The translations under genes and the position numbers were made by a program. From contig CADAKI010000004.1 of the NCBI GenBank assembly GCA_902788485.1, positions 1-64,000 on the forward strand: DNA of 64,000 nt, in the 5' to 3' direction. Origin of the DNA: an uncultured Pseudomonadota bacterium. GTDB taxonomy: Bacteria > Pseudomonadota > Alphaproteobacteria > Rs-D84. Each line of letters opens with the position of its first letter. Within the stretch, counting starts at the first letter, position 1. The notes under the pieces are model-generated. The model saw only the letters and a program-made list of their open reading frames with translations. It ran no database searches and had not been told where the DNA came from. This document shows, piece after piece, positions 9,144 to 60,666 of this stretch.

Positions 9144-9956
9144 TTATTTATTCAATGCATCGATAATTTGTTTGTACGGAACCGCACCTGGGAACGCCTG
9201 GTCATTGATAATCAAGAACGGTGTTCCATTGATTTCGAATTCCTGGGCCATACCACGAACATTTGCCAATTCACGTGTGACAACCTCGCCCTGCATATCG
9301 GCTTCTAACTGTTTGACATCCAAACCAGCGTCTTTGGCAAATTTCAAAACATTTGCTTTGACCTTGGCACCCAATTTAGAACGGTCTTTCATATCATCCG
9401 GCGAATAATATTCTTTGGTCATCAAAGATGTCGCCAATGCCGCGGCCTTGGTGTTATCCTGGATTTTTGCCGCAATCACCGCACGTGCCGGTGCATCAGA
9501 CAATTCGCCATGGATAGAAAAGTTTTTCAACACAACACGAACATCATCGCGTTCCGCCAATACTTTTTCCAATTCGCCATGCACACGACGGCAATACGGG
9601 CATGAAAAATCAGTCCAGATAAAGATTGTGTTTTCCGCATCCACATTACCCAAAATCGGGGCATCCGCCATCATGGATTCCGCACCAGATTTAATTGCCT
9701 TGCGAATCGCTTTATTTTTTTCAGCCGCCTGTTGTTCTTGGAACCCTTCGGCCATTTCTTGCAAAATCATTGGATTAACCGATGTCAAATAATACGGCAT
9801 CACCAAACGTGTTGTGCAACCCGCAATCAAAATAATTGCCAGCAATTTAACACACTTTTGCATTAAAGATTCGCCCTTGCCCGTCGTGCCCAGTACATTT
9901 GCACCAAACAAGAACAATGCAATCGCGACAATCAAGATTAAAATTGTCCAAATCAT
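9144..9956 (-). CDS. membrane-anchored DsbA-family thiol oxidoreductase
   Basis: Thioredoxin-fold DSBA protein (270 residues) predicted to act in the periplasm. Two hydrophobic segments (about 1-23 and 34-55, the latter containing Cys) anchor it. The active site is SCPYCRRVHGELE with CPYC near 119-122, and the cis-proline loop is NGTPFLII. The start at 9956 has an AAAGGAG site; the longer upstream frame is rejected. CPYC plus the inserted helical domain fits oxidants such as BdbD/Com1-type proteins. It is a candidate disulfide donor for the cysteine-rich exported proteins in this window, which is inference. It ends an operon after recO. Confidence 0.88.
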   Translation of the reverse strand: MIWTILILIVAIALFLFGANVLGTTGKGESLMQKCVKLLAIILIAGCTTRLVMPYYLTSVNPMILQEMAEGFQEQQAAEKNKAIRKAIKSGAESMMADAPILGNVDAENTIFIWTDFSCPYCRRVHGELEKVLAERDDVRVVLKNFSIHGELSDAPARAVIAAKIQDNTKAAALATSLMTKEYYSPDDMKDRSKLGAKVKANVLKFAKDAGLDVKQLEADMQGEVVTRELANVRGMAQEFEINGTPFLIINDQAFPGAVPYKQIIDALNK

Positions 9957-16470: not shown

Positions 16471-16498
16471 TAAAAATGCCCAAACGGGCATTTTTATT
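16471..16498 (-). terminator. mscS terminator
   Basis: Stem AAAAATGCCC-aaac-GGGCATTTTT overlapping the mscS stop codon. Confidence 0.88.
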
Positions 16499-17408
16499 TT
16501 TGAATGTGTACATCAATTTGCGGAAACGGAAAATGAATTTTCTTGCGTGGCAATTCGCGATATAACGCCTCGCGCATATCACCCATGGATGCAAACCAAT
16601 CCGCATACTTGGTCCAATACCAAACGGTCAAAACAACCGCACTGTCGCCCAGGTCACTTACAAAAACAGACGGCGCAGGATTTTTTGCGATACGTTTATC
16701 TTTTGCCAAAACCGCCAATATCGCACGACGGGCGACATCAACATCATCGCCATACGAAATTGCAATTTGAATTTCGGCACGACGCGCCCCCCTGTCCGAT
16801 AAATTTATAATTTCACCATTTGCCAACGGACCATTTGGAATAAAAACGACCTGGTTATCAAAAGTATGTAATTCAGTTGTGAAAATCATAATTTTTTTAA
16901 CCGTACCCGTGCGACCCGATGCCGTTTGGATAACATCACCGACCTTGAACGGTTTCAAAAATAAAATTATTATACCGCCGGCAAAATTTTGGAAAGTTCC
17001 CGACAACGCCATACCAACCGCCAACGCGCCCGCGCCCAACACCGCGACAATAGATGTCATTTGCACACCAACCGTTGTCAGCACAATAATAATTACAAAA
17101 ATCCGCAACAAAATATTTACAAAAGACGCCGTAAACGAAATCAAAGACGCCTCTAACTCGCGCCGTTCCATCGCATATTTTATAGATTTGGTAATTTTAT
17201 TCACAATCCACATACCGACAGAAAAAATTGCAATCGCCGCAATCAATTTCAAACAAAAATCAACCGCACCACCCAACAAAGATTGAATTAAATCATGCCA
17301 TTGTTCGGCGGTTTCCGGCGGTGTTGTCACCAATTCATGTTGGACATCCGCCATATGTTGCAATTTATCTTGGATTCCCGCCGCAATAACTTCATCTGGA
17401 TTATTCAT
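16494..17408 (-). CDS. mscS: small-conductance mechanosensitive channel (MscS family)
   Basis: Inner-membrane channel that opens under hypo-osmotic stress. The 304-residue protein has an extended N-terminal periplasmic or soluble part, three hydrophobic helices, the pore helix VAVLGAGALAVGMALSGTFQNFAGG (about 125-150) and the beta domain start LKPFKVGDVI. The cytoplasmic vestibule domain follows to the end. It lies 18 nt after the large cysteine-rich gene at 17427 and may be co-transcribed with it. Confidence 0.93.
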   Translation of the reverse strand: MNNPDEVIAAGIQDKLQHMADVQHELVTTPPETAEQWHDLIQSLLGGAVDFCLKLIAAIAIFSVGMWIVNKITKSIKYAMERRELEASLISFTASFVNILLRIFVIIIVLTTVGVQMTSIVAVLGAGALAVGMALSGTFQNFAGGIIILFLKPFKVGDVIQTASGRTGTVKKIMIFTTELHTFDNQVVFIPNGPLANGEIINLSDRGARRAEIQIAISYGDDVDVARRAILAVLAKDKRIAKNPAPSVFVSDLGDSAVVLTVWYWTKYADWFASMGDMREALYRELPRKKIHFPFPQIDVHIQK

Positions 17409-17426: not shown

Positions 17427-20123
17427 TTACATTTGAATATCTTCGCATTTTTCCACCGGTGTTCCCGATTTACACTCGACACCACGCGAATCCCACAATC
17501 CCAAAAATCCGCGCGAGCCCTTGTTTTTGCAATCTTTGGTAATTGTTGATGTGCACACATGGCAAATACGACTGTCGCGATTAAATGTCGACCACATTTC
17601 GCGTGTTCCACCATCAAATTCAGATTTATAATGATCCGACGCCAATATACCAACCGCCTTGACCGCAGAATCCGCAATCAACGCCGCCGGATTAAATGCA
17701 GATATATTACCCGCCGCAGTTTGAGCAACTTTTCCACCCAAACTTGCAAATTTACTTGCTGTAACCGCTGCACTAACGCTGCCTGCGATTGTTGCTGCCG
17801 ATGCACCAACGCTACTCGCGACACCACCATCCGAACCACCTGCGGCATTACCACTCCATGATTCACTGGATGCGCCACCCAATGTTGTTGACGAATGTGT
17901 TCCGCCCGCCGCCAAAGACGCATTTGACACACCACCAAATTCCATAACAATCGCACCCGTCGGCAACAACGGCGTATTTAAATCTGCCGACGATATACCT
18001 TGGGCGGTGCCATTTGATGCCGGCAATTTATTGCACATCAAATTTGCCATATCAACCGACGCGCCATCCATTGCTTTGGATAAATATTCATTATATTTTT
18101 TGTTATAATTATCCTGGGCCTGGCGCAGTGCCGCAATTGCAATCTGCATTTTAACCTGGTTCAACAAATTCGGAAACCGCGCAGATGTTTTTTCTTTTTT
18201 GCCCGTGATTTGTTCCAAATTACGCCCCGTAATACAGAATTGAATTTTCGGGTCTTGTTCAATCATTTGAACAACGCGATTGATTGTGCCCTGGATATTT
18301 TCCAATTCATATAATATTGAATCCGCAACCCCAACATATTGCGCCGGAACCGCATTTGATTCATTCAAGAAAAACACATAACTATCCGGTTGTTCCTTAC
18401 CATCTTCGCCTTTATTACTTATGCTTATTATGCCCGCATCTTTATCCGTAGAACCAACTTTGATTTTGCCAAATGAAATCATACCGGTTAAACGATGAAC
18501 ACCACCATCTTTTTGATATTGCAACGACCCAGTTCCCATTGTATCGTCGGCGGCAAATTTATTGCAATCGGTGGTCGAACCACAAACCTCGGTCATTTTT
18601 TCTTCGACCAAATTCTGGCATGTTTCCAATGCAGAATTATCGATATTCAAATACAATCCCATCAACATAGAATCCAAATCATCCATTGAAAATTTTGGAT
18701 TGGCCTGTTTGCATACAACCAATTTATCGATTGGGCAAATGTCATGAATATATGCGTAATCCATACCGATACAGTTCTGGAAATTTTCACCACAACGATT
18801 TTCATCGGTAAAGCATTCTTTGACCTCGGTCGTGCATGCATCAACACGCATCGCCGCCAATTTATCTTTTACATACGCCCAAATTTGCGGTTCCATCCGT
18901 TCGCATGGGTCAATTTCAACCTTGCAGAAACTGCGTGCCATATCGGGACGCGCCAAACACGCATCCATTGTGTCACGACCTTTGCCGGCGATATCATCTT
19001 TACACGCCTTTTGAATACAATTTGAAATGTCGGTCAAACAAGATTGCCGTTTTTTCGATTCCGCCTTACTTTCCGCCAAACGAATTGTTGGTGCCGCCTC
19101 GCGCAGGAAATCTGTCCAAACATATTCACGCACCTTGACACATTGATCCAACACCCGTTCACAGATATAACGTTTTGATTCCAAAATTTCCATTGTTGAA
19201 TCGGTGATATCATATGTGACGGTTTTTTTAACCTTGGTCTTGGCGGTGCTGGTTGCCTGATTATTTTGCATATTTTCACCCGCGATTGTGAACACACAAT
19301 TTGCCCAATCGGCACCACACGCATCCGGACCCTGCATACATTTTTTATATTCAACCATGCATTCCCCGCGGTCATATTTGTTTGACGACGCCAAAGAATC
19401 TTTTAATGCAGAACGCACCGCGGCATTGGCATTGTTCATCGCTGTTTTGGCCTCGGCCTCGCGCTTTGCGATACTGTTTTCAAACCCCTTGCAATCCGAC
19501 ACGATTTGCCGTGAATACATTTGTTTCAACAAAGTATAATCTTTGGAACAAGTATCCATATCGATTTGTTCACGACACAGATTATCCGCCGCCGCAAATA
19601 ATGCGTCACCTGTTTTATCGGCAATAGATTCCATATCACCAAACACATCGTCATCCATCCCCGCATCATCCCACATTGCCAGCAAAGATTGCCGTTTTTC
19701 CGCCGCTGTTTTTTTTGGTGTTTGCGCAACATCACCGGTCTTTTTGTCATATTCGCGCGTACCGTTAAATATGATATCGGCATTGGCGCCTGCCTGGACA
19801 CGTTCAACTTCTTCGGTTTGTAATCTGTCGGCCTCGGCCAAAGTATCCTTGATTTTTTCTAATCTCGCCTGGTACCCGGCATTTTTATCACTGCACGCGC
19901 AAGACCCGCCGTCTTCATTATCCAAAATACAAAATTGATCCATACATCCGTAATACGCGTCATAGCATTCTTGATTATACAACCCCGACACATCTGTTTT
20001 CGCGCGAACCTTGGTTCCCTGTTGAATCGCAGATTGTTTCCCCGATGTATTTGTCGCAGCACCCACCGGCATCACAACCGCCGCCACCATAATCAACATA
20101 AATACGCGCATGAAATTTTTCAT
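17427..20123 (-). CDS. large secreted CX6C-repeat cysteine-rich protein A
   Basis: Unrecognised 898-residue exported protein with a signal peptide (MKNFMRVFMLIMVAAVVMPVGAA). It starts with a CMDQFC module (C-x6-C-x4-C then SCACS) near residue 45. Further C-x6-C units follow, including two full C-x6-C-x6-C-x6-C units (ECMVEYKKC..., ACTTEVKEC...) and SCLTDISNC. A coiled-coil stretch, an Ala/Gly/Ser-rich region and a cysteine-containing end (CHVC, EKCEDIQM) complete it. It is the closest paralogue of the protein at 57868. The ATG at 20123 is chosen because the earlier ATG lies inside the GGAGAGAG ribosome site. It is the second gene after 20146. Confidence 0.85.
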   Translation of the reverse strand: MKNFMRVFMLIMVAAVVMPVGAATNTSGKQSAIQQGTKVRAKTDVSGLYNQECYDAYYGCMDQFCILDNEDGGSCACSDKNAGYQARLEKIKDTLAEADRLQTEEVERVQAGANADIIFNGTREYDKKTGDVAQTPKKTAAEKRQSLLAMWDDAGMDDDVFGDMESIADKTGDALFAAADNLCREQIDMDTCSKDYTLLKQMYSRQIVSDCKGFENSIAKREAEAKTAMNNANAAVRSALKDSLASSNKYDRGECMVEYKKCMQGPDACGADWANCVFTIAGENMQNNQATSTAKTKVKKTVTYDITDSTMEILESKRYICERVLDQCVKVREYVWTDFLREAAPTIRLAESKAESKKRQSCLTDISNCIQKACKDDIAGKGRDTMDACLARPDMARSFCKVEIDPCERMEPQIWAYVKDKLAAMRVDACTTEVKECFTDENRCGENFQNCIGMDYAYIHDICPIDKLVVCKQANPKFSMDDLDSMLMGLYLNIDNSALETCQNLVEEKMTEVCGSTTDCNKFAADDTMGTGSLQYQKDGGVHRLTGMISFGKIKVGSTDKDAGIISISNKGEDGKEQPDSYVFFLNESNAVPAQYVGVADSILYELENIQGTINRVVQMIEQDPKIQFCITGRNLEQITGKKEKTSARFPNLLNQVKMQIAIAALRQAQDNYNKKYNEYLSKAMDGASVDMANLMCNKLPASNGTAQGISSADLNTPLLPTGAIVMEFGGVSNASLAAGGTHSSTTLGGASSESWSGNAAGGSDGGVASSVGASAATIAGSVSAAVTASKFASLGGKVAQTAAGNISAFNPAALIADSAVKAVGILASDHYKSEFDGGTREMWSTFNRDSRICHVCTSTITKDCKNKGSRGFLGLWDSRGVECKSGTPVEKCEDIQM

Positions 20124-20145
20124 AACTCTCTCCATCTATGAAAAT

Positions 20146-22377
20146 TTATTTTAACAAATCGTTCAGCATTTCTTCCGTGATATTACCCACATTGATATCT
20201 TCGCACGATTCCAATTCTTGACAGGACTCTTCTTCACCACTGGACACAGCCCCCATAACACCGGCACCAATCGCACCAACCGCCGCACCAATCGCCGTTC
20301 CCCAACCCGGGGATACCATTGTTCCGGCTGATGCACCCGCTGCCAAACCACCCGCTGCGGCCTTTAATGCAGATGTAGATTTCTTTTCACCACCCGTTTC
20401 GCACACGCGTTGCACACGGCACACATGGCAATTACGCAAATCGGGTTCGTATGAAACACTGCGGATATAACTGATTGCGCCTTCCGCATCTGGCTTATTC
20501 TCTTCTTTATATTTGGCCAGGCAATATTTATGATTGCGATCGGTCTCTTGGGCCGATTTCAAATCATCCATAATCCGCGTGTATTCGCGCAAGGCACGAT
20601 TTTTTGCCTCAACATATGCAATCATTTTCGCCGTCATATTAATACTGTCGTTCATATCTGTGACACCCGCAGGTTTTTTGGCTTGACCGCTGTAAACGGT
20701 TTGACATGCCGACAAAGTCAAATCACGTTCAAAATCCGTAAAGAATTTATCCACCGCCGCATTCACCGATTGTGTGATTTTCGCATCCACAGAATCTGTT
20801 GCACGGGAAATTTTCGACACCGCATTACCCGCCGCCAATTTTGTCGCCGGCGCATATAAATCAACCCATTTTGTTGTATCAACACCCGCCAACAATTCCG
20901 ATGTCGGTATACACGACATATCTGTTCCACACACGTTAGTCAATTTTTCCGCAAATTGATTTATACAACCCGTCAATAATTGGTAATCCATTTTCAACAT
21001 TGCCGACGATACCAAAACATCATATTGCTTTGCACCTTTGCAAGATGGAAACATCGTTTGCGGACATAATTTTGCAATTTCTTTCGAACCTTTACCAACA
21101 CACTCTGGCTTTGTGAAATCAACACCGCATTTATCTTTCAAACACGCATCCAAATCATTTTCACAAAACTTTGTTTGTAAATATGCCAATTTATCATTTA
21201 TAACCGTTTGCAGTCCCGGAATTTTTTCATTACATTCGGTAATAATCGGACAAATTCCGGCGGCAACCTTCACATCGGTTAAACATGCAGAATTTGTAGA
21301 TGTCGAACAACCCTCTTCCAAACAATTTTGGATTTTTGCCAAACACATGGCGCGACTGTTTTTATCCGCATATTTTTCTGCCTCGACCAAAATCAATTTA
21401 GATTCATCTTCCCAATCTTGCAAAACATAATCGCGGTCATACATGCATTGATCCAAAACATCTTCGCATGCATTTGCACGACGCGACAACAAACCCGCAT
21501 CCAAACAGTTTTCAAAATTCACACCACATCCGCCTTTGTCTGCGATACAAGAACGATACGCCAACAAACATTCCCCACGATTATATTTCCGCGTTGTATC
21601 CAACATTTCTAAACGCGCCGAACGCACTGCGGCCTCGGCTGTTTTTTTATTCATTTCCGCGTCACGTTTTTGATCCGACAAATATGTTTCAAACGATTTA
21701 CAATCCGCGACAATCATGCGCGAATACAATGTTTCTTCCATATTTGATTTCGAACCACATTTTTTTAATTCATCCGCACACGCCGTCGCCGCCATAGAAT
21801 ACAAATTTTGACCAATATCGGCATCATCCCCCAATTCACCATCCGCATCCGCACCATCGTTTAACCATGCCGAAAAATCAATCCCAGATTTACTGTTTTT
21901 CGCCGCATCTGATTCACCAAAAACCAATTTTGCACGCGCACCCAATTTTTCGCGTTCAACACCCGTGGTGTATAAATCATCGGCCTCGCTCTGTATTTTT
22001 TGAATATCTTGAATCAATTTTTTCGACCGCAAAATATTGTCCGAACACGCACACCGCGAACCCTCGGTTTCGTCCAGCAAACAAAATTCATCCATACATT
22101 GCCGATACGCATCACGACAATTTTCTGGCTCAACCGGTACATCTGCAACCGGTTGCGACACCGAACCCTGACCCAATACAGAATTTGTGACATTACGTGG
22201 TTCCACCGTCGGCACATTGGCGGTTTTAATTGCCGACATGTTGGACAACGAAGACAACCGCCCCGACGATGTTGTTGCCGGACGCATACTGACACGCGCA
22301 CCGGTTGTCACCGTATCTGCGGCGAACGCAATCAACGGGAACACACAAAAAACCAACGCGATATTTTTGATTTTCAT
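20146..22377 (-). CDS. large secreted CX6C-repeat cysteine-rich protein B
   Basis: A 743-residue exported paralogue; signal peptide MKIKNIALVFCVFPLIAFAA. It has the same order of modules: NCRDAYRQCMDEFC with RCACS, ECLLAYRSCIADKGGCGVNFENC, ACEDVLDQC, MCLAKIQNCLEEGC and a divergent CLKDKCGVDF unit. Near the C-terminus a hydrophobic glycine-zipper-like stretch (AAGGLAAGASAGTMVSPGWG, then GTAIGAAVGAIGAGVMG) is followed by CQELESCEDI. The promoter -10 TATTAT (22391-22396) lies next to GGAGAGAG, giving a leader of about 8 nt. The 22-nt gap to 17427 implies one operon. Confidence 0.85.
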   Translation of the reverse strand: MKIKNIALVFCVFPLIAFAADTVTTGARVSMRPATTSSGRLSSLSNMSAIKTANVPTVEPRNVTNSVLGQGSVSQPVADVPVEPENCRDAYRQCMDEFCLLDETEGSRCACSDNILRSKKLIQDIQKIQSEADDLYTTGVEREKLGARAKLVFGESDAAKNSKSGIDFSAWLNDGADADGELGDDADIGQNLYSMAATACADELKKCGSKSNMEETLYSRMIVADCKSFETYLSDQKRDAEMNKKTAEAAVRSARLEMLDTTRKYNRGECLLAYRSCIADKGGCGVNFENCLDAGLLSRRANACEDVLDQCMYDRDYVLQDWEDESKLILVEAEKYADKNSRAMCLAKIQNCLEEGCSTSTNSACLTDVKVAAGICPIITECNEKIPGLQTVINDKLAYLQTKFCENDLDACLKDKCGVDFTKPECVGKGSKEIAKLCPQTMFPSCKGAKQYDVLVSSAMLKMDYQLLTGCINQFAEKLTNVCGTDMSCIPTSELLAGVDTTKWVDLYAPATKLAAGNAVSKISRATDSVDAKITQSVNAAVDKFFTDFERDLTLSACQTVYSGQAKKPAGVTDMNDSINMTAKMIAYVEAKNRALREYTRIMDDLKSAQETDRNHKYCLAKYKEENKPDAEGAISYIRSVSYEPDLRNCHVCRVQRVCETGGEKKSTSALKAAAGGLAAGASAGTMVSPGWGTAIGAAVGAIGAGVMGAVSSGEEESCQELESCEDINVGNITEEMLNDLLK

Positions 22378-22515
22378 ATCTCTCTCCACTATAATACTAT
22401 CATGTTTATTTTATCAAAAAAAACGCAACATATCAAGCCCAACTAAAAAAATCTTGATATTTTTACGCACGGGATATATCATAGGAAAAAACAAAAAAAA
22501 CAAAGGATTCAATTT

Positions 22516-22848: not shown

Positions 22849-25266
22849 ATGAGGAAGAAAGGATTTCTGTTTTTATTTTTGCTTGGTTTAACCGCGTCTG
22901 GTGTATCATACGCGGCGGACCGTTCTGCGCCCGGAAACACATCACCCACAATGCGCGGAAATATGGCAACCAATGCCGCCGCACGTGCAACAATATCGGT
23001 GCGACAAAAAAACACACCAACACAAAACATAAAATCCCGTGCCACAACAAACAATGCGCAACGCACATCTATAACGACGACACAAAACATAAAATCGCGC
23101 GCGGCAAAACCCACCCGCACCATCACATCAACCCGGTCCGGGTTATTCACACATCCAACAAAACAAAAATCGGTCACTTCACGCGCCGCAACATTGGATT
23201 TGAACGGCATTGACACGACATCAAATTTCGGCAATGAATACAACACATGTCGCGACGCATATTTTACATGCATGGATCAATTTTGTGCAAATATGGACGA
23301 CACATATCGCCGGTGCATTTGTTCGTCCAGGATTTCGGAAATAAAGCAAAAGCAATCAACATTGGCCAACACATCGGATTCATTGGCGACATTTCATGAT
23401 TTGAATTTGGACATTATCAACAAATCTGCGACCGAAGTTACCGCCATGACATCCGCATCCGCGGGCGAAATGTCATTGGCCGGCACAAACGATAAATCGG
23501 CATCTGCGAAACAGTTAAACGCGATTGGCGATGTTTTATCAAAAACAAAATCGAAATCATTGTCCACCGCCGGCACATTGGACGCGGGCGGCGATATAAA
23601 ATCTATTTGGGCAACCACGGATTTGGCAAACGGCGCAAACATTGCGAACCTGACGGGGGAAAGTTTATTTAACGCGGTCAATGCACAATGTACACAAATG
23701 GTGACTGCGCAATGTTCATCATCAATATTAAACATGGTTGTATCTGCATACGGGATGTATATTGAAAACGATTGTGCAACATTGGCGACAAATTTAACCA
23801 AACAGAAAAATTCTGCAAATTCTGCAATTCGCGAAACAGAACGCGAAATGAACATCGCGCGCCTGGAAAATTACGACGCACACAATTTATTATCTATAAA
23901 CGATTGCATTGCGAACATCCGCAACGATGTCACCGCCGACACCGCGTGCGGACCGGATTTTGTACACTGTTTGGATGTGACGGGTTTGTATTTGAATATC
24001 GACACCGGCGAACCATTATACACGAAAAATTTCTATAACCTGGCAAACCAGATTTCATTATCTGGGAACATTTTATCAAATCAAACAAATCATATGTTTG
24101 TGAACGCATTGAACAAGAAAAAAATTTACGCCGAAAAAACATTGGATAAATGTCGCGACCTGTCCGGCGATGTATGGGACGAATTCATGCGCCAGGCAAT
24201 AATTGAAATCCATCAAAAACAACAAGAAAAAATCAGAACCGTAAAAAACGAATGTTTGGGCGTCGTCAATCAATGCTATGACGAACAAACAAATTCATTA
24301 AAAGATTTCAACAATGTTTCCGACAAAACATTATTGGGATTAACCATGGAAACCGTCGAAGATTTATGCCGCGAAAAATTAGACACTTGCAGTAACCTGT
24401 ACGGTGGCGGCGCATCGGGACTGAACGAATTGGTGAACGCGATGCGCGACATTGTTGACCAACGAGTTGTCGCCGAATGTCAAAATTTATTGACTGATTT
24501 TGGAAAAAATTTATGTTCCACACAATCCAGTGATACATTACACGCATACCCATACGCATGCCGTGTTTATACCCCCGGCGACCAACAATATGCCGCCATA
24601 CCAAAATGCAATGCGGCAACCGCAAATTCTGCTGATTGTGGCAACGATTATGTTGACAGTTTATATCAACGTTTTGTGCATTATGCGATGCAGGTTTGTA
24701 TTCGTCCATCTGAATACGAAAATTATGCAACGACGGGGGAACTGGCGGTGCCAACATCTGTATTACAAGACATAAATATCGTTATGGATAAAATGCGCAT
24801 TTCAATGGGGAACGAATTGTCCCGCGAATGTGAACGATTGGGTGGCATTTGGGTATCAACACCATACACAAACACATCGATTGCATTATTGGAACAATTT
24901 TATACCGAAACCGGCACAAACAAAAATTGGGGCTATTGTCGCACACCAACCGCAACAAACGAAACATATGTCGTCACTTTTGATAACAAAACCAATAGCA
25001 ACACAAATACATTTACGGCGATTGTCACATTTGGTCAAAAAATGGCATCTGTTGCAAAACCAACAAAAACCGTCAATGGAACATCATGCATATTCGGTGG
25101 ATATTATTCTGGCGAAAATGGCACCGGCACACAATATTATAACAGTACTGGTACCGCCACACGCACATGGGATATTGCGGGCAATACAACACTGCATGCA
25201 AAATGGGACAATCCCGACGACAACACAACCGGATGCACCACCAACATAATCCGCGCATTAAATTAA
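22849..25266 (+). CDS. large secreted CX6C-repeat cysteine-rich protein C
   Basis: An 805-residue exported member; signal MRKKGFLFLFLLGLTASGVSYAA. After a Thr/Arg/Asn-rich leader comes TCRDAYFTCMDQFC with RCICS, then weaker C-x6-C units (NECLGVVNQC) and a CGPDFVHC fragment. The C-terminal 95 residues look like an InlB-type beta repeat (VTFGQKM...FGGYYSGENGTGTQYYN...TTLHAKW), known from bacterial surface proteins. There is no ribosome site. TAGAAT (22834-22839) sits 9 nt before the ATG, so the message is probably leaderless. Confidence 0.83.
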   Translation: MRKKGFLFLFLLGLTASGVSYAADRSAPGNTSPTMRGNMATNAAARATISVRQKNTPTQNIKSRATTNNAQRTSITTTQNIKSRAAKPTRTITSTRSGLFTHPTKQKSVTSRAATLDLNGIDTTSNFGNEYNTCRDAYFTCMDQFCANMDDTYRRCICSSRISEIKQKQSTLANTSDSLATFHDLNLDIINKSATEVTAMTSASAGEMSLAGTNDKSASAKQLNAIGDVLSKTKSKSLSTAGTLDAGGDIKSIWATTDLANGANIANLTGESLFNAVNAQCTQMVTAQCSSSILNMVVSAYGMYIENDCATLATNLTKQKNSANSAIRETEREMNIARLENYDAHNLLSINDCIANIRNDVTADTACGPDFVHCLDVTGLYLNIDTGEPLYTKNFYNLANQISLSGNILSNQTNHMFVNALNKKKIYAEKTLDKCRDLSGDVWDEFMRQAIIEIHQKQQEKIRTVKNECLGVVNQCYDEQTNSLKDFNNVSDKTLLGLTMETVEDLCREKLDTCSNLYGGGASGLNELVNAMRDIVDQRVVAECQNLLTDFGKNLCSTQSSDTLHAYPYACRVYTPGDQQYAAIPKCNAATANSADCGNDYVDSLYQRFVHYAMQVCIRPSEYENYATTGELAVPTSVLQDINIVMDKMRISMGNELSRECERLGGIWVSTPYTNTSIALLEQFYTETGTNKNWGYCRTPTATNETYVVTFDNKTNSNTNTFTAIVTFGQKMASVAKPTKTVNGTSCIFGGYYSGENGTGTQYYNSTGTATRTWDIAGNTTLHAKWDNPDDNTTGCTTNIIRALN

Positions 25267-35000: not shown

Positions 35001-35069
35001 TGAAATCTAACCTATGCCGAAAAACACCTATTTTTGTCACAATATATGACAACCAAGGGAGTCAAACAC

Positions 35070-36152
35070 ATGAAAAAATTTATTTACATTTTTTGCATAT
35101 CTGTAATGTCCACACCCGCAATCGCATGCACCGGAATCACCCTGCACGCGCGCGACGGCGGTGTGGTTTCCGCCCGTACAATTGATTGGGCAGAATCCGA
35201 CACAAACAACATTTATACCATCGTTCCACGCGGACACGTGTCGCGTTCACTACTTCCCGACGGAACACAAAACGGTTTGACATTTACAGCAAAATATGGA
35301 TTTGTTGGTCTGGGCCCAGAACGCCCGGAATTCGTTGTTGACGGCACGAACGAAACCGGCCTAAACGCAGGTTTATTTTATTTCCCAGATTACGGAGAAT
35401 ACCCCAAATACGACGAGGCTATGCGTGACATTTCCGTCGCCGATTTACAAGTCGTATCGTGGATATTATCCAATTTTTCAACAATTGACCAGGTCAAAGA
35501 AAACATCAACAATATTCGCGTAATAAACATTTACCCCAACTCTTCAACCGTACATTGGCGCATAACCGAACCCGGCGGTCGCGTTGTTGTTATGGAATTT
35601 ATCAACGGCACACCAACATTTCACGAAGACGAAATCGGTGCAATTGCGAATTCACCGAACTTTGATTGGCAAAACACAAACCTGAACAACTATGTAAATT
35701 TACACGCTGGCACCGCCGAACCATTAAAATTGGGTGCCATTACATTAAAATCTTTCAGTGGCGGAACAGGTCTATTGGGAATACCGGGTGATTTTTCATC
35801 CCCGTCACGTTTTGTCCGCGCCGCATTTTTCGGCAATATGGTAAATCAGCAGCAAAATTCAGAATCAACTATCCCGGTTGCGTTTCACATACTGAACAAT
35901 TTGGACGTTCCGTTTGGCACAACATACAACAATAATCGCGCGCCAACAAATATGCCATCCGGTACACAATGGACAATTGCCAGCGATTTAGCAAACAAAG
36001 TTTTATATTATCACACAATGTATAACCGCACAATTCGCAAAATTGATATGAACGAAATCAATTTCGAAACCGTCCCATTTCAATTTGCACCATTGGACGA
36101 TGTAAAGCGCGAAACAATAATACCGGTTCAAATTCAAATCGCCCAAGAATAA
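35070..36152 (+). CDS. exported choloylglycine hydrolase / penicillin V acylase family
   Basis: Ntn-hydrolase of the bile-salt hydrolase and penicillin V acylase family, which cleave amide bonds in conjugated bile salts, penicillin V or acyl-homoserine lactones. The 360-residue precursor has a signal peptide MKKFIYIFCISVMSTPAIA, and cleavage would expose Cys as the N-terminal nucleophile (ACTGITL). Counting from that Cys, Arg17 and Asp20 of SARTIDW are in place. Downstream are DGTNETGLNAG and GGRVVVMEFING. The start at 35070 has an AAGGGAG site. Periplasmic location fits Gram-negative members. Substrate cannot be told from sequence. Confidence 0.88.
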   Translation: MKKFIYIFCISVMSTPAIACTGITLHARDGGVVSARTIDWAESDTNNIYTIVPRGHVSRSLLPDGTQNGLTFTAKYGFVGLGPERPEFVVDGTNETGLNAGLFYFPDYGEYPKYDEAMRDISVADLQVVSWILSNFSTIDQVKENINNIRVINIYPNSSTVHWRITEPGGRVVVMEFINGTPTFHEDEIGAIANSPNFDWQNTNLNNYVNLHAGTAEPLKLGAITLKSFSGGTGLLGIPGDFSSPSRFVRAAFFGNMVNQQQNSESTIPVAFHILNNLDVPFGTTYNNNRAPTNMPSGTQWTIASDLANKVLYYHTMYNRTIRKIDMNEINFETVPFQFAPLDDVKRETIIPVQIQIAQE

Positions 36153-38031: not shown

Positions 38032-39771
38032 CTATGCCGCCATGTCCGACGCCGCATCTTTATCGGCATCTTTTTCGGCCAGTCCCCGCGCCAATTCCAT
38101 ACCGCCAATTCCCGTCGCCGCCATGGTCAGACCCGACAAAGCCCGATTTGCCGTAGACGTCTCGCGTGACAACGCATCATCATACGCACTTTCCGCATCT
38201 TGCATTTGTTTTTCTAATTCAGCCGCATCAACACATTTACCATCAACCAATTTGAAACCACCCAAACAATCTTTTGGAATACAAACCTCATTTTCAATAC
38301 CACCACTGGCGGCATTCAAATCTTTCAACTGACTCTTCGTACATTCTTGTTTGACACATGTTTTATCTTTAATTTCATAATCTATTTTACAAACCAACGG
38401 TTCACATTGTCCGTCGCTATTCTTGGTCCCAATAACCGCATTTATACTATTTAATTCTTCTTCAGAACAAGACACATTGCTCGGTCGCACCATCGATGCA
38501 TCCAATTGCGGCGGTTCTTCGCAATAGGCATCATATTGACCATCGTTAAACAATTTCCAATCTGAATTCCGACATTTTGTTTCATACACACATTCGTCAC
38601 CAACTTTTTTATCACGACAAATAACACTGTAATTTCCTGCGCACGGTTTGCACTCTGTCACTTTCATGACATCAATATTTTGTTGTATTACGCCATCACG
38701 CACCGGCACCACACTTCCGCCTGCCGCTACATCAACTTTCTTATCATCGTCAGCATCAGCATTCAACGACGTTTTTTCATTTGGATTTTCTATCGTTGTA
38801 ACAGGTTCGGCAAGACGTGTATTGACCGTTTCTTCTGATACCACTTTTTCCTCTATGACAGGATTTTCTGGTTCCCATTTTGCATAAAATTCCTTGTCCT
38901 TGCCATCATCACAAACATGTTTGAGATCCACTTGAAAAGAGCATTTTTCTTCCCGACTATCTTTATCATATGTACACCATCCTTGGAACACATGATCTTT
39001 CTTTGTTGGCTTGCAATCAAAAACCCCTTTGTTATACGCACCATCCAAATCACATTGTTTTTTCTCGTCCTCAGAAAGATTGAACTTATGCCAACATGTC
39101 TTAGACTGTGTCGTCGCGGTTGTCACAGGTGCAGAATTGTTGTTTGTTTGTCCATCTACATATGGTTTCACACCCTTTTCTATTAATAATTGCTCTATTT
39201 TTTCACAATGAGTACTACCTGTGTATCTACAAATATCACCATCTTTCAAAAGTCTCACATAATCTAACAAAGTACCGTGTACTTTTTTCTGACTCGATCT
39301 GACCTGTACTTCTGCATCAACTATAATATCAAGGTCAGCACCATGATCCACCAATGATTTTACCGCTTCGTATGTTGTTTTGGTACAAGACGAACACCCC
39401 CCATCAAACTCTTTACCTTTACCACAACCACCACCACCACAACAAGCACTAACAACCGATTGAATAGTTGGTATACCATACTCTGTTCTCAAATCCACCA
39501 ACTCATGATTACTATCAAGCATGGCATTCACCGCCGCAACATTTGCTGGGCATCCCCGAGGTGATAAAGCCCAGTGCAACGGATGCCAACTCGCAGTTCC
39601 GTTACTTATACAATCGTATTTTAAAAACTTACTAATATCACCCTTGGTATACTGTTTTATTCCATTAATCAAACCAGACTTATCCTGATGGCAATTTTCA
39701 GCGCCCCACCCCGGCACACACAACACCATTGCGCAAAACACACCACAAAAAATTGCACGAAAAACGGCCAT
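38032..39771 (-). CDS. secreted ankyrin and cysteine-rich protein, TAG-interrupted
   Basis: A 579-residue exported protein; signal MAVFRAIFCGVFCAMVLCVPGWGA. Residues about 50-210 form degenerate ankyrin repeats (PLHWALSPRG, VKSLVDHGADLDIIV, IEQLLIEKGVKPY) with cysteine insertions (CCGGGGCGKG). Next is an InlB-type beta repeat (VFQGWC...KEFYAKWEPENP), an acidic linker, and cysteine-rich segments (CKPCAGNYSVIC, CSEEELNSIN, CLGGFKLVDGKC). The start is set by GGAGAGAG. A TATAAT lies 22 nt upstream of that. The same frame continues to 37549 after TAG. The two parts together would give about 740 residues. Confidence 0.75.
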   Translation of the reverse strand: MAVFRAIFCGVFCAMVLCVPGWGAENCHQDKSGLINGIKQYTKGDISKFLKYDCISNGTASWHPLHWALSPRGCPANVAAVNAMLDSNHELVDLRTEYGIPTIQSVVSACCGGGGCGKGKEFDGGCSSCTKTTYEAVKSLVDHGADLDIIVDAEVQVRSSQKKVHGTLLDYVRLLKDGDICRYTGSTHCEKIEQLLIEKGVKPYVDGQTNNNSAPVTTATTQSKTCWHKFNLSEDEKKQCDLDGAYNKGVFDCKPTKKDHVFQGWCTYDKDSREEKCSFQVDLKHVCDDGKDKEFYAKWEPENPVIEEKVVSEETVNTRLAEPVTTIENPNEKTSLNADADDDKKVDVAAGGSVVPVRDGVIQQNIDVMKVTECKPCAGNYSVICRDKKVGDECVYETKCRNSDWKLFNDGQYDAYCEEPPQLDASMVRPSNVSCSEEELNSINAVIGTKNSDGQCEPLVCKIDYEIKDKTCVKQECTKSQLKDLNAASGGIENEVCIPKDCLGGFKLVDGKCVDAAELEKQMQDAESAYDDALSRETSTANRALSGLTMAATGIGGMELARGLAEKDADKDAASDMAA

Positions 39772-39830
39772 AAAACTCTCTCCAAATTCTATCGCCAATT
39801 ATTATACCATAAAAAAAGTATTTTTTCTAA

Positions 39831-46919: not shown

Positions 46920-49900
46920 TTAAATTCCCAAACGATGTGATAATTTCATCATAAATATTGATTCATTTCCAAACGCGTCTGTATTGTTTGGATTGACGCG
47001 ATAAATAAAGCCCAGCGCACCATCCGTCCATTCACCAAATTTATGACGATACGATGCATTCAAACGATATTCACGTGTCTCTGGTGTTAAATCAATACTG
47101 CGTTCACCAAAATTGTTCACAACCAACGCGCCATTATTATCCATACCAACATCCGCAACAGAATAACGCATCGCGCCCGATGTTAATGCCAATGGCATAC
47201 TGACCATCAATTCAAAATTACCAAAATTCATACCCGCCGCAAACGCATTTGATTTTAATTCGGATACACCACTTATCACACCACCCGTCACATCACCCGT
47301 ACGCGTCCAGGCATATGTTCCACGCAATGTTAAATTTGCCCAATCATTAAACGAATATTTAATAACAGAATCAATATAGTTCGTATCCGCGCCACCTAAA
47401 TCTAAAAATCCATAGCCCGCCGCACCCAACACAGTATTCGTCTCGTGCATCGTTCCAAAGTTCGACGCAATCTGCAATTTATCACCGCGGAAAGAAATTC
47501 CTGATTCCGCCCCCATCACATCACCCAGTTTTGCCGACGCAAAATTATTCGACACCGCCGGGTCATTTTCCAACAAACCATCTGTGGTTATATTACCAAC
47601 AAACGCACGTCCCGAAACACCGAATCGACCGGACTTTAATTCCACCGCATTGGACAACGCATTCGATGTCAACGCCAACACCGGATTGGCCATCCCGCCG
47701 AAACGTCCCGCCCCATCAGTCAAATAGTGCTGATATTCCGATTTAAACCCAAACCGGTCATTATCCCACGCAATAGATAACGCATCCACCCCCGACATAT
47801 TATCATCGTATGCGCGTTCACTGCGCGCGAAACCAAATTTGAAATTACCAACCGTCACAGAATTATCCACATCCCGCGTTTTTAATTCCGCCAAAGTATC
47901 ACCCAAATATAACCCATGCGACGCGTCGCCACCCAACGCAACATCTGTATTCCATTGACGCATAACCGACATTGCGCCATCCGCCGACCGCACCACATCA
48001 TACGCCGCAACCGGAATTGTCGCACCACGCGCCCCAAATACCCCTGTTCCCCGTAAAGTGGACATACGCAAATCATCCCAAAAAACTTTATTTGATGACA
48101 CAATATTACCGTTCGAAAAATAGTAAATTTTTTGTCCGGGCGTTGTTGCGCGTTCCAAATTTATCAACCCATAACCAAATGTTTTTTGAAATTCTTTTAA
48201 ATACAAATCTCCTGTCAATGCATCCGCAGAATTTGATATAGTAAAACGATCCTTTAAATAGGTAACCAAATCGTCTTTGCTAAACCAATCATCATTTGAA
48301 TTTTTCGCCAAAAAAGGACCGTCCGCCGTCAATGCCAACAAATTAAATATTTCTTGATTTGACATATATGCAAAGGATTTTTTCAAAGACGCCACCGCAC
48401 CCGCCATTGACGCAACCGCATATTCCGCCGTATCACCCGGCGCGGCGAAACACCATGGGTCGATAGATGTGGTTCCTGTCCCCGCAACATCACACATACG
48501 CGAACGATAAAAAACCGTTGGTGCATCTGTATATGCCCATTGTGACAATTGTATTTTTCCAAAATTCGAACCGGTCCCATCACCATAATTAGACACGCTT
48601 GTCGCACTGGATGTTCCTGTTTCATGCTGAACCGCAACAACTGACATAAAATTTTTATTAATCAAACCATTATACAAAACCGGCACATAATTTTCAAATG
48701 TCGCTTCAACATTTGTTCCCGACGCATAATTTGAAAGTTTATATCCACCCACAGAATTTATAATTATTGGTGATGTTGGCGTATATCCAGAAAACAACCC
48801 ATCTGCAACATTCCCCTGACCCGCACCATACCAATTTGTCACCAAACTTTTAAAACTGTCTACATCATTCACACCTGCAACAATATCATACGTTGCAACA
48901 GACAACGACGCTGGAATCAAACTGGCATTTGCGACAACATCTGTTTTGCTCAACACACCAGAAAACAATTCATAATTTCTGGCCACTGCATTTTGCATCG
49001 CCTGATAATTATAATATGGAATACTTGCATCTAAATTATCTTTTCCTCCACCGGTTCTGAATACAGCCAAAGAACTAAACGGTGCAAAACCATACAAATC
49101 ACCCGTTGCCCCCCAACCGGCAACAATTTTTGCAATATTATTATCTATTATCCCTGCGACCGAACTTTCCACCGCCGTGTTATTTCCAGACAAATCAAAC
49201 ACCGTATATTCCGTCGTCCCCGAACAAGAACTTCCATTACACACAGAATCACTGTAATTTTGATATTTATCAGAATATAAAACTGTTGAAGAATCCGTCA
49301 CCGTTGGTCCCGCAACATATGCAATACCACCATTACGCGACAAAGAACCGCCCGAATTTACATTTATACCATTTGTCGTAATCAAACTAACAATCGCCGG
49401 CGCACCACCACCAACAGTCACCCCCGATACTGACAACCGCAACGGCGCATGCGTGGACGCATCACGAAATATCGTTTGCCCATAATATTGATTTGCAAAC
49501 AAATTATACCCATGCGCAATCAATAAATAATTTTGCATATCAGAACCCTGAATAAAATCAAAATTATTTTCTCCTTCACTCGACACCCAGGCATCTGCAC
49601 TGACGACGATATTTGGATTAACCACCCCATTTTCCAAATATGCCGGACTGTATGGAACAGTAAACATCGGTGTCACATCAGATGAATCATTCCCACCGCC
49701 ACCACTGTTACTGCCGTGGCCACCTGTTCCAACCCCGGAATCACCGCCACCACCATCAAATGCGTCGGTTGCCCACAAAACACCCGCAATTCCACCGGCA
49801 ACCCCGACGGCACCCAACATCAATTTATGTGTTGGTGACAGCCCCGAAAACACGCCGGTATCCGATGTTGGATTATTTCGCGCACGATAATTTTTTATTT

Positions 49901-50177
49901 GCCGATCGCACTGTGATGCATCGGCACCATACATTTGTAAAACCTGGACCGCACGAACATCATTATTCATAACCGCGGTGCACACAACCGACAGCCCCGT
50001 CGAATCGACATAGTTCACATTTGCACCACTGTTGATTAAATTTTGCATCAAACGTGTATTTCCATTACGCGCCGCAGACAACAGTTGCGCCGCCATATTA
50101 AAATCAGTCCCCGCCGCAATCGATGCAACCGGCGCGAACATCATCAACAAAAACAAAATTCGATTAAATCTGATCAC
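46920..50177 (-). CDS. autotransporter with ankyrin repeats and degenerate subtilase-like passenger
   Basis: A 1085-residue outer-membrane protein. Signal VIRFNRILFLLMMFAPVASIAA with a GTG start fixed by the GAGAGAGAG site. Residues about 30-95 hold two ankyrin repeats (AARNGNTRLMQNLINSGANVNYV; VRAVQVLQMYGADAS). A hydrophobic Gly-rich segment and a GGGGNDSS linker follow. The central region aligns by eye to S8 subtilases: SSVAGIIDN...GFAPFSSLAVFRT where HGTHVAGII...GVAP is usual, and later YAVASMAGAVASLKKS where GTSMAAPHVAGAAAL is usual. The catalytic His is absent. The C-terminal about 270 residues form a beta barrel ending SHRLGI. Activity as a protease is unlikely. Confidence 0.78.
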   Translation of the reverse strand: MIRFNRILFLLMMFAPVASIAAGTDFNMAAQLLSAARNGNTRLMQNLINSGANVNYVDSTGLSVVCTAVMNNDVRAVQVLQMYGADASQCDRQIKNYRARNNPTSDTGVFSGLSPTHKLMLGAVGVAGGIAGVLWATDAFDGGGGDSGVGTGGHGSNSGGGGNDSSDVTPMFTVPYSPAYLENGVVNPNIVVSADAWVSSEGENNFDFIQGSDMQNYLLIAHGYNLFANQYYGQTIFRDASTHAPLRLSVSGVTVGGGAPAIVSLITTNGINVNSGGSLSRNGGIAYVAGPTVTDSSTVLYSDKYQNYSDSVCNGSSCSGTTEYTVFDLSGNNTAVESSVAGIIDNNIAKIVAGWGATGDLYGFAPFSSLAVFRTGGGKDNLDASIPYYNYQAMQNAVARNYELFSGVLSKTDVVANASLIPASLSVATYDIVAGVNDVDSFKSLVTNWYGAGQGNVADGLFSGYTPTSPIIINSVGGYKLSNYASGTNVEATFENYVPVLYNGLINKNFMSVVAVQHETGTSSATSVSNYGDGTGSNFGKIQLSQWAYTDAPTVFYRSRMCDVAGTGTTSIDPWCFAAPGDTAEYAVASMAGAVASLKKSFAYMSNQEIFNLLALTADGPFLAKNSNDDWFSKDDLVTYLKDRFTISNSADALTGDLYLKEFQKTFGYGLINLERATTPGQKIYYFSNGNIVSSNKVFWDDLRMSTLRGTGVFGARGATIPVAAYDVVRSADGAMSVMRQWNTDVALGGDASHGLYLGDTLAELKTRDVDNSVTVGNFKFGFARSERAYDDNMSGVDALSIAWDNDRFGFKSEYQHYLTDGAGRFGGMANPVLALTSNALSNAVELKSGRFGVSGRAFVGNITTDGLLENDPAVSNNFASAKLGDVMGAESGISFRGDKLQIASNFGTMHETNTVLGAAGYGFLDLGGADTNYIDSVIKYSFNDWANLTLRGTYAWTRTGDVTGGVISGVSELKSNAFAAGMNFGNFELMVSMPLALTSGAMRYSVADVGMDNNGALVVNNFGERSIDLTPETREYRLNASYRHKFGEWTDGALGFIYRVNPNNTDAFGNESIFMMKLSHRLGI

Positions 50178-50237
50178 ACTCTCTCTCGATATACCTTGAA
50201 CAAAGGTTAGCACATAACAAAAAAACAAGTCCACAAA

Positions 50238-56736: not shown

Positions 56737-56835
56737 ACATTCTCCCTTTTTGAATACATTATACCATAAAAAAAACCATAAGAAAACTTTTTTTACACAT
56801 TCATCATAAAAAAATATGAGCAATTTATTATTTTA

Positions 56836-57841: not shown

Positions 57842-57869
57842 AAAATCCCCCAAACGGGGGGATTTTTTT
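57839..57869 (+). terminator. terminator between convergent genes
   Basis: Stem AAATCCCCC-aaac-GGGGGGATTT flanked by A and T runs. Confidence 0.9.
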
Positions 57870-60666
57870 ACATCTTGATTTCTTGCGTTGTTATAATTGG
57901 CTGGCCCATTTTGGTACAAACCGTTCCTGCAAATGTGGATTCTGGCGTTGTACTGGTGCCACTGCCACCAAACAAACTGAACCCACCACACCCGTCAAAT
58001 GTAAAGAATCCGCCACCGCCACACGATTCAACCTCGGACGTGTTATAAACATCTTTGATATTTTCACACATGGTTGTTGTTGTGGTTAATGTGCATGTAT
58101 TTGTATCCGCAGAATACACCGCACGTACCGCAATTTTACCCAACATATTTCCCTTTGCATCGGTTTGAACAAATTCACCATTGCCAGACGATTGCAAATT
58201 CAACAAATTATTCATCGTCATACCATCCAAAACCAAACGCACATCATAATCACCGACACTGGCACCACCGACACTCAAATCATTTCGGGCAAAATCAACA
58301 CGTGAAAATTGTGTTGTATTTCGTACACTCTGCTTTACTTTTTCAACCAGCCCCAAAATTCCGCTAGATTTTAATGCATTTTCAGATTTATTTATTTTTA
58401 TTTTACCCGACGATGCCATTGCCGCACACATCACAGATTTATTTTCATCACTTTGTTGTTCGATTGCCTTGGCAAACAATTCTTCATATTTTTTAGAATA
58501 ATTTTCATTTGCCTTGTCCAAACCGGCATTTATTATCGTCATAATTTGCGAATCCAACAAATGCGGGAAACGCGCAGAATCTTGGGTTGAACGATCTTGA
58601 CGCGTGCCACGAACTTGACGCATATCACGACCATTTATGCACATACTGATTTTAGAATCAGATGTCAACAACGCGATTTTCTGATTAATTTTGTTTTGTG
58701 TTGATTGCAAACTGGACAACACACGGTCTTTGATTGCCGATGTCCCATCAACATTTTTAATATTATCTGAATATCCCGAAATATCTAATTCGTATTTACC
58801 AAATTTCACATTATCCGTGGCACTTTGGGTTTCTTTGATTTTAACATTACCAAAAGACAACAATCCTTCAATAACAAAACTGCCATCACGCGCCTTATAC
58901 CCTGTCAAACTATCTGCGCCAATATATGCATCGTCATCAAACGCCAAACATTCACTTTCACCGCCACATATTTCAATCATTTTTGCATTGACCGCATTTG
59001 TGCATGTCGTCAACAAAGAATTATCAACATCCAAATAAATTCCTTGGACAATATTATCGATTGTTTCCCACGCAGCCGCCTGGCCATTTTGTTGACAACC
59101 AACCAATTTATCCAACGGACACATATCTTTGATAGATTGTAAATCTAAACCGATGCATTTTGAATAATCAGAACCGCAACGGTCATCAGATTGCAAACAT
59201 TCTTTGACCTCGGTCGTGCATGCATCAACACGCATAGAAGCAAGGCGCGCATACACATAATCCAAAATTTGTGGTTCGGCCGCAATACATGGGTCAATTT
59301 GCACCTTGCAAAGTGAACGCATTGTTTGCGGGCGCGACAAACACATATCATACGAACCATCCGGATCATTTGGATCCATTGTATCTTTACATGCATTCTG
59401 GAAACATGACGAGATATTGGCGATACAATTCATACGGACATTGGATTCGGCCAACAATTCGGCGGACTTTAATGTTGGTGCAACTTCGCGCAGGAAAGTA
59501 TCCCACACCTGGTTTTTGACAGATGTGCATTGATTTGTCACCGAATCGCACATCGGTTTTTTTGCACTGATAATATCGTATGTTGATGCCGCAATAGAAA
59601 TCGTTGTCAAACCTGTTTTTATATCAAAAGTTTTGGCCTTGGATTTTGCACCAACACGTGTTTGTGCGTTTTCTGTTGCCACAACCGATGCACAGTTTGC
59701 AAAATCTTCGCCACAACCGGCGGTTGTTTGCATACATTGCTTAAAACGCACCGTGCATTGACCCAAATCATATTTATTTGCATTTTGATGTTGTTCCAAC
59801 GCCGCATCACGCAATGCAGTTTGCGCCGTTTGTAATTTTTTTGCCGCAGCATTTTTTTGCTGTTTCAAACTGTTTTCATACGCCGTGCAATCAGATTTAA
59901 TTTGTTGCCCATACATCAATTTTAACATTGACATTTCACGCGAACATTCCGGTATTTGCCTTACACATATATCCGACACAGATGCATGCAACGCGTCACC
60001 TGTTTGATTTGCAATATCATTTTCTGAATTGCCGAAAATATCGTTTTCATCTGTTTCATAAATATTATTCCACGCATCCAAGTTCAATGTCCGCGCACGC
60101 GTATTTTTGGTATTTGGATTTTGTATATCACCCGTAATTTTATCAACCATGCTTTGCACCGCATCGGCATCCGCACCCATATTTATGCGTTCAACACCGG
60201 TTGTTGCCATGGCATAACTCTGTTCATCTAACTTTTGAATTTCATCCAAAACTTTGTCCAATTCCGTATGACGATTACTGCATAAACAACGGCCACCATT
60301 TGCATTATCCAACATACAGAAAGAATCCATACACCCGAAATATTTTGTTTTGCATTCCTCGCTGACAACAGTATTTGTTGTTGCACCAACGATTTTAGTA
60401 CCACTATTTACCGCCTTTTGTGTGGTTGCCGCACGTGCATTTACGCGCTGCGTTGGCGCCGCGGTTTGTGTTGCCTTGGGCTGTGCAACCGCCGCGCGTC
60501 CGCGTTGCACCGTGGCACCCGCCACCGCATTATTTGTCGATTGCGTTGTTGTTGTTTGCCCCGGGGCCACACGTGTCCGTGCCGAACTGCGTGTTGCCAC
60601 CGCCGCATCGACATCCGTCCCAACCAACCCCATAAAAATCAGAGCGAACGCAAAAATTTTTTTCAT
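57868..60666 (-). CDS. large secreted CX6C-repeat cysteine-rich protein G
   Basis: A 932-residue exported protein; signal MKKIFAFALIFMGLVGTDVDAA, then a Thr/Ala/Arg-rich leader. ECKTKYFGCMDSFC with RCLCS starts the cysteine region. QCTVRFKQCMQTTAGCGEDFANC, MCDSVTNQC, NCIANISSCFQNAC and ACTTEVKECLQSDDRCGSDYSKC follow in the same order as in the protein at 17427, and VWDTFLREVAPTLKSAE is nearly shared with it. The C-terminal 150 residues differ: cysteine and Gly-rich (ESCGGGGFFTFDGCGGFSLFGG). GGAGAG precedes the ATG and TATAAA lies 24 nt upstream. Confidence 0.86.
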   Translation of the reverse strand: MKKIFAFALIFMGLVGTDVDAAVATRSSARTRVAPGQTTTTQSTNNAVAGATVQRGRAAVAQPKATQTAAPTQRVNARAATTQKAVNSGTKIVGATTNTVVSEECKTKYFGCMDSFCMLDNANGGRCLCSNRHTELDKVLDEIQKLDEQSYAMATTGVERINMGADADAVQSMVDKITGDIQNPNTKNTRARTLNLDAWNNIYETDENDIFGNSENDIANQTGDALHASVSDICVRQIPECSREMSMLKLMYGQQIKSDCTAYENSLKQQKNAAAKKLQTAQTALRDAALEQHQNANKYDLGQCTVRFKQCMQTTAGCGEDFANCASVVATENAQTRVGAKSKAKTFDIKTGLTTISIAASTYDIISAKKPMCDSVTNQCTSVKNQVWDTFLREVAPTLKSAELLAESNVRMNCIANISSCFQNACKDTMDPNDPDGSYDMCLSRPQTMRSLCKVQIDPCIAAEPQILDYVYARLASMRVDACTTEVKECLQSDDRCGSDYSKCIGLDLQSIKDMCPLDKLVGCQQNGQAAAWETIDNIVQGIYLDVDNSLLTTCTNAVNAKMIEICGGESECLAFDDDAYIGADSLTGYKARDGSFVIEGLLSFGNVKIKETQSATDNVKFGKYELDISGYSDNIKNVDGTSAIKDRVLSSLQSTQNKINQKIALLTSDSKISMCINGRDMRQVRGTRQDRSTQDSARFPHLLDSQIMTIINAGLDKANENYSKKYEELFAKAIEQQSDENKSVMCAAMASSGKIKINKSENALKSSGILGLVEKVKQSVRNTTQFSRVDFARNDLSVGGASVGDYDVRLVLDGMTMNNLLNLQSSGNGEFVQTDAKGNMLGKIAVRAVYSADTNTCTLTTTTTMCENIKDVYNTSEVESCGGGGFFTFDGCGGFSLFGGSGTSTTPESTFAGTVCTKMGQPIITTQEIKM

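Follow-up and report, generated by a model that had tools for sequence, protein, structure and literature searches.

Cysteine-Rich Paralogues A, B, and G of a Candidatus Enterousia-Type Alphaproteobacterium: One Protein Plan with Gene-Specific Tips and a Putative Role in the Cell Envelope

Three Old Paralogues of One Family

Three cysteine-rich proteins, A (17427..20123), B (20146..22377), and G (57868..60666), are encoded on the minus strand of the window, a stretch of 64,000 nucleotides from contig CADAKI010000004.1 of assembly GCA_902788485.1, and on the evidence of their sequences they are three old paralogues of one family. The whole reading proposed here, to which a probability of roughly 0.55 is given, is that they are Sec-exported, disulfide-stapled structural components of the envelope or of the cell surface, any sharper role being less probable than this structural one. 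A, a putatively Sec-exported protein with 36 cysteines, is the product of the second gene of the B-A pair and has orthologues in 80 named loci; B is the product of the first gene and carries a glycine zipper near the C-terminus; G is the paralogue nearest to A and its gene adjoins rplQ-rpoA. A more distant paralogue, D (22849..25266, plus strand), is divergent from B with infA between them. Export-type hydrophobic N-terminal segments are found in most of the A, B, G, and D orthologues. The open reading frames of A, B, and G are all present, open, and complete; those of A and B extend over 17427-20135 and 20146-22389 (GTG at 22389), and the likely true starts are the ATG at 20123 for A and the ATG at 22377 for B, each behind GGAGAGAG, the latter being the end that the first-pass annotation had given to B.

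BLASTP aligns A and G at 39% over 686 columns (E 9e-160), A and B at 29% over 546 columns (E 3e-56), and B and G at 27% over 477 columns (E 1e-49). When the non-cysteine residues were shuffled with the cysteines kept fixed, the real scores were 63 (A-G), 47 (A-B), and 36 (B-G) standard deviations above the shuffles and, with all cysteines masked, 141, 38, and 26, respectively. The common body with a single order of modules that had been proposed in the first-pass annotation is strongly supported by BLASTP, by the shuffles, and by the cysteine spacing, and the homology extends beyond the cysteine motif, since it persists when every cysteine is masked. As regards the motifs by which this order had been described, the order is retained but the wording does not apply to G, which has QCTVRFKQC and CIANISSC and not ECxxxYxxC and CLxxIxxC.

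The Cysteine Ladder and Its Probable Disulfides

The body begins with a CMDxFC module, continues with a long helical hairpin, and then has six-cysteine units in succession. The N-terminal module (A residues 55-82, 19890..19973, minus strand; C57, 64, 69, 79, and 81) has the form CMDxFC...CxCS with the spacing 7-5-10-2 in A, B, G, D, and most of the other paralogues, and the spacing after the helical spacer, 7-19-44-7-7-7-13-7-34-7-5 onward, is found in A and B and as far away as genomes that belong to different families of the order. The six-cysteine unit C-x6-C-x6-C-x6-C ... C-x6-C after a 44-residue helical step is present in the A/B/G family. In A, all on the minus strand, unit 1 comprises residues 257-335 (19131..19367; C259, 266, 273, 280, 325, and 332), unit 2 residues 364-412 (18900..19046; C366, 373, 378, 393, 404, and 411), and unit 3 residues 432-476 (18708..18842; C434, 441, 448, 455, 467, and 475). 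Unit 1 (C259-C332) is homologous to unit 3 (C434-C475), with an hhalign E-value of 4e-7 against 0.06-0.08 for the reversed controls, while the comparison of unit 2 with these two (E 0.02-0.06, reversed controls 0.08-0.39) is only suggestive of a further repeat. The order of the units reported in the first-pass annotation is retained, but not all of them are separate, as ECMVEYKKC... and ACTTEVKEC... are copies of one repeat. Variants of this plan occur in the same family: D and its nearest paralogues do not have two of the cysteines of unit 1, and a large paralogue of the same genome (contig C1, around 238006; open frame of 1078 aa) is without the CMDxFC module and contains several units of the six-cysteine type one after the other, as read from the cysteine spacing.

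Excluding one cysteine in the signal peptide of B, each of the three proteins has 31 cysteines in the body and 5 in the tip, and their conservation is at least 99% for all 36 cysteines of A (79 species) and for 36 of the 37 of B (75 species). In the family alignment, 3 rows lack both C57 and C196 and 15 lack both C266 and C325, with no row lacking only one member of either pair; for the pairs C861/C897, C378/C393, and C441/C467, a loss mostly affects both members. Within their units, 1 and 3, C266/C325 and C441/C467 occupy the second and fifth cysteine positions, the equivalence expected if the two units are repeats; on the body tree, each of the three changes at C861 or C897 affects both cysteines at once (sign test p 0.25). 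The co-lost cysteines behave as disulfide partners would, and their pairing is a prediction because the independent events are few; for the remaining cysteines the co-loss analysis resolved no partners.

Disulfides could also be formed between proteins as well as within them, giving a cross-linked envelope layer that resembles the armour of Chlamydia. This explanation, judged unlikely, draws on the presence of a large set of cysteine-rich exported paralogues in a bacterium with a reduced genome and possibly dependent on a partner, and on the numbers of cysteines in body (31) and tip (5), which are both odd, so that, if all are oxidised, at least one bond must join the body to the tip or to another protein. 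In Chlamydia, the envelope complex with OmcA/OmcB, cross-linked by disulfides, works likewise (PMC6752827). However, the 36 cysteines of each protein are an even number, the co-lost pairs point to intrachain bonds, and the proteins have neither a sequence relation to the chlamydial ones nor a Pfam match at E 0.1.

The Linker and the C-Terminal Tips

The part of the proteins that does not align is mainly a low-complexity linker rich in Gly, Ser, and Ala (A residues 709-840; 17616..18011, minus strand), which is hypervariable: its residues 761-840 in A are present in 20-35% of the orthologues, and the AlphaFold2 pLDDT is below 50 at residues 763-831. The linker is followed by a conserved beta tip of the pattern CxxC...C...C...CEDIQM (A residues 841-902; 17430..17615, minus strand). 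In B, the tip includes a hydrophobic glycine-zipper segment (B residues 672-718; 20236..20376, minus strand) that is found in 75 of 75 B orthologues; in the window copy of G, the tip (G residues 845-932; 57871..58134, minus strand) has a Gly-rich loop and is without the cysteine pair equivalent to C861/C897 of A. The Gly-rich stretch FTFDGCGGF of this G lies between tip cysteines 3 and 4, and the glycine zipper of B is located at the same loop. The five tip cysteines of A (79 species) and of B (75 species) are conserved at 99% or more.

Of 29 G orthologues, selected with a high score threshold, 18 have tips with the pattern CxxC ... C ... C ... VETCEDIQF, of the same kind as A, which the A tip matches with a profile-profile probability of 97% (E 8e-11; reversed control 0.016). 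The other 11, which include the window G and two sequences with unusual or short ends (L117 and L132), are without both the second cysteine of the CxxC and the terminal cysteine, and the loss of only one of the two is never observed. The matches of the A tip with the B tip (E 1.8e-4; reversed control 0.54) and with the window G tip (E 0.02, in register; reversed control 0.68) are weak; an HMM of the A tip detects the B and G tips and gives nothing with reversed sequences. Since the CxxC and the terminal cysteine are retained in A, in B, and in two of the three tandem relatives in a genome from another family of the order (G004), the tip state of the window G is the derived one. It may have originated by strong divergence or by replacement within the G lineage, the sequence being too diverged to tell these apart.

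These data bear on the idea, put forward in the first-pass annotation, of a common body with exchanged tips, and on the corresponding explanation of a modular adhesin or antigen family whose C-terminal domains are swapped between paralogues to alter specificity, which appears improbable. It would account for the window G tip, unlike that of A and matching it weakly, for the two tip states among the G orthologues, and for the hypervariable linker. On the other hand, the tips are specific to each gene and conserved over 75-79 species, those of A and of most G are homologous, and the genes are mostly 1:1 and syntenic across the relatives. The trees of the body and of the C-terminal part (single, small, built with a quick method and with some long branches) both keep A, B, and G as distinct groups, and this agreement indicates that no tip has visibly moved between genes. 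Exchange as a general design is unsupported; the contrast of a CHVC/CEDI end in A and B with a Gly-rich end is correct for the window G but not for G as a whole. The rule is thus a single protein plan in which the linker and a loop are hypervariable, and not an exchange of tips.

Structure Models and Database Searches

The AlphaFold2 models consist of long helices in the body and a beta sheet in the last ~65 residues, with a mean pLDDT of 76 and a pTM of 0.46 for the full model and of 80 and 0.54 for the body alone; such pTM values leave the overall shape uncertain. Scans of A, B, G, and D against Pfam (E 0.1), NCBIfam, and PHROG gave nothing relevant, the sole match being a weak glycine zipper in B, and neither sequence nor profile searches of the PDB returned a match, the profiles not even at E 10. 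Foldseek against the PDB, with the full model and the body, both of moderate confidence, gave no match at E 0.001, and the best fold match of the same models in VIA-align against the PDB had a Z of 5.9 (full model) and 5.8 (body), so that neither search produced a convincing fold. The hits to RNA-phage coat proteins among them (Z 5-6) cover the small beta tip together with strands of the linker and were regarded as a meander of a common type. Viral-protein structures gave no match.

Gene Order and Origin

In the named genome collection, B immediately precedes A in 78 of 80 loci, with D on the other side of B in ~60 and infA in 73; an MscS-type channel (16494..17408, minus strand) immediately downstream of A is found in 46 of the 80. 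Most of the G loci, taken with short flanks, have rplQ and usually also rpoA next to the gene, and in the window rplQ and then rpoA are upstream of G. In the G004 genome, rpoA-rplQ-xer is followed by three tandem relatives; in the tree, the first clusters with B (support 80), and the second and third fall close to A and G. This tandem arrangement beside rpoA-rplQ suggests that A, B, and G probably arose there by tandem duplication before the families split, and the simplest history would be that G stayed in place and B-A moved ~40 kb off in the Enterousia lineage. Two more cysteine-rich proteins (275 and 379 aa) are encoded behind the tandem relatives in G004 (L173:12393-14326), the first with a shortened CMNKFC module.

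The window also contains other genes for cysteine-rich or large proteins. A protein with 28 cysteines and two glycine-zipper stretches (54589-56823, minus strand) looks exported, and no match in Pfam, NCBIfam, or PHROG and no clear relation to A/B/G was found for it. Another (38032-39798, minus strand) has 33 cysteines and a Listeria-Bacteroides repeat (TIGR02543, above the cut-off), and proteins weakly similar to it are encoded downstream of B-A in several relatives. A product of 1104 residues (46920-50234, minus strand) matches ankyrin weakly close to its N-terminus, and its C-terminal part, by eye, is presumably like an autotransporter barrel.

The Host, the Distribution of the Family, and DsbA

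Candidatus Enterousia and the rest of its order are widespread in the gut and uncultured. The assembly (843,556 bases, ~0.84 Mb, 91% complete) belongs to an alphaproteobacterium of the Enterousia type, assigned to GTDB Rs-D84 through the named records closest to A, which come from alphaproteobacteria of the rumen and gut (UBA3635, 89% identity) and from Candidatus Enterousia (64%). Members of the genus, in GTDB order Rs-D84, have genomes of less than ~1 Mb, are without a respiratory chain, and are probable symbionts or parasites, and only hypothetical membrane proteins possibly contacting other cells have been published for them (PMC12306168). A choloylglycine (bile-salt) hydrolase family protein (35034-36152, plus strand; E 2e-62) is encoded in the window of this host, which has little metabolism left.

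A search of its own genome identified ~12 paralogues of the A/B/G family on contigs C1, C2, and C4-C8, for a total of ~9,700 residues as summed from the open-frame lengths, which corresponds to ~3.5% of the assembly. The family is present in 4 of 289 genomes of the class, all four of the same order, and, as far as tested in a sample consisting of MAGs only, appears confined to the order of Ca. Enterousia (Rs-D84). Further families of the order have shorter or weaker relatives, two of which are encoded close to genes that we take, by eye from their sequences, to be BamA-like. In the literature on Enterousia and Rs-D84, no description of the A/B/G family was found.

A candidate folding catalyst, a DsbA-like thiol oxidase anchored by a membrane segment at its N-terminus and carrying a CPYC site, is encoded in the window (9144..9956, minus strand). 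All 27 near-complete genomes searched in the genus contain DsbA; neither DsbB nor VKOR was found in any of 39 genomes with two Pfam models, both matching in their control genomes. In other genomes that have A and dsbA on one contig, the two genes are usually separated by no more than ~20 kb, for which inherited gene order is a sufficient reason.

As no DsbB or VKOR was found, some of the cysteines could be in the reduced state or hold metal, and the proteins could be metal-binding or redox-active, acting in electron transfer or metal storage, with no structural disulfides. The host, anaerobic and fermentative without a respiratory chain (PMC12306168), is also in line with this explanation, to which little probability is assigned: the cysteines are lost in pairs and not in fours, conserved histidines and CxxC or CxxCH motifs are few in the body, and DsbA is found throughout the near-complete genomes. 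Least probable of all is a component of some secretion or conjugation-like apparatus, such as a cysteine-rich mating-pair protein of the sort of TraN, which A, B, and G presumably resemble, since cysteine-rich export, an operon with a membrane-anchored partner, and deep conservation would suit it but no Pfam, NCBIfam, or PHROG match was obtained, no relatives were found on the viral contigs searched, and no secretion or conjugation genes, nor a type IV secretion operon, were identified beside A, B, and G among the window genes scanned.

Proposed Mechanism and Significance

As structural parts of the envelope or surface, A, B, and G would be exported via Sec, a localisation deduced from their N-terminal segments, and would then be oxidised by the DsbA-like protein. 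About 15 disulfides would staple the mostly helical body into what is predicted to be a stiff rod, and each protein would carry its own small beta tip behind a flexible linker. B is probably held in the membrane by the glycine zipper of the tip, and A, encoded in the same operon, probably pairs with it; G, formerly adjacent to A/B, would have diverged after the tandem duplication. The three proteins would be fixed parts and not variable adhesins, the variable antigen being disfavoured because of the strong conservation and the mostly 1:1 orthology. More tentatively, it is possible that a whole order of anaerobic gut bacteria with reduced genomes has an envelope scaffold made of around twelve paralogous helical rods that are stapled by disulfides and represent a new fold, using DsbA without DsbB or VKOR and hence some other electron sink.

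The family occupies ~3.5% of a genome stripped of most biosynthesis, with every cysteine conserved in nearly all the relatives examined, and conservation at this cost means that it must matter to these bacteria. B-A, G, and D offer concrete handles on the architecture of the envelope or on the contact with a partner, and they raise the question of how disulfides are formed in a fermentative bacterium that has DsbA and no recognisable DsbB or VKOR.

Comparison with Known Systems

Long helices and an elongated form bring the models near to helical repeat rods of the spectrin kind, to which there are weak fold matches (Z 5.8 with the full model and 3.6 with the body), but these are at the level of any helical model, with an rmsd of at least 12 Å, and spectrin is without disulfides and has no sequence relation to the family. 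Twin CX9C or CHCH proteins are helical hairpins with paired cysteines at a fixed helical spacing, and the A/B/G proteins likewise have paired cysteines at fixed spacing in predicted helices. They differ in the spacing, C-x6-C with C-x4-C and C-x6-C repeats, in the size of 700-900 residues, and in being bacterial; two C-x9-C pairs in one hairpin are absent from the body, whose spacings are 7, 5, 10, 2, 19, 44, 34, 12, and 8, and there is no Pfam match.

The OmcA/OmcB proteins of Chlamydia are cysteine-rich and exported, their disulfides are thought to strengthen the envelope, and a DsbA-type oxidase is present (PMC6752827). The A/B/G family is similar to them in being rich in cysteine and exported-looking, in a reduced-genome host with a DsbA-type oxidase. 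The A/B/G proteins have no sequence match to OmcA/OmcB and another cysteine spacing, and Chlamydia has DsbB, of which none was found in the Enterousia genomes. A cross-linked layer of the chlamydial type would be the nearest known way of working.
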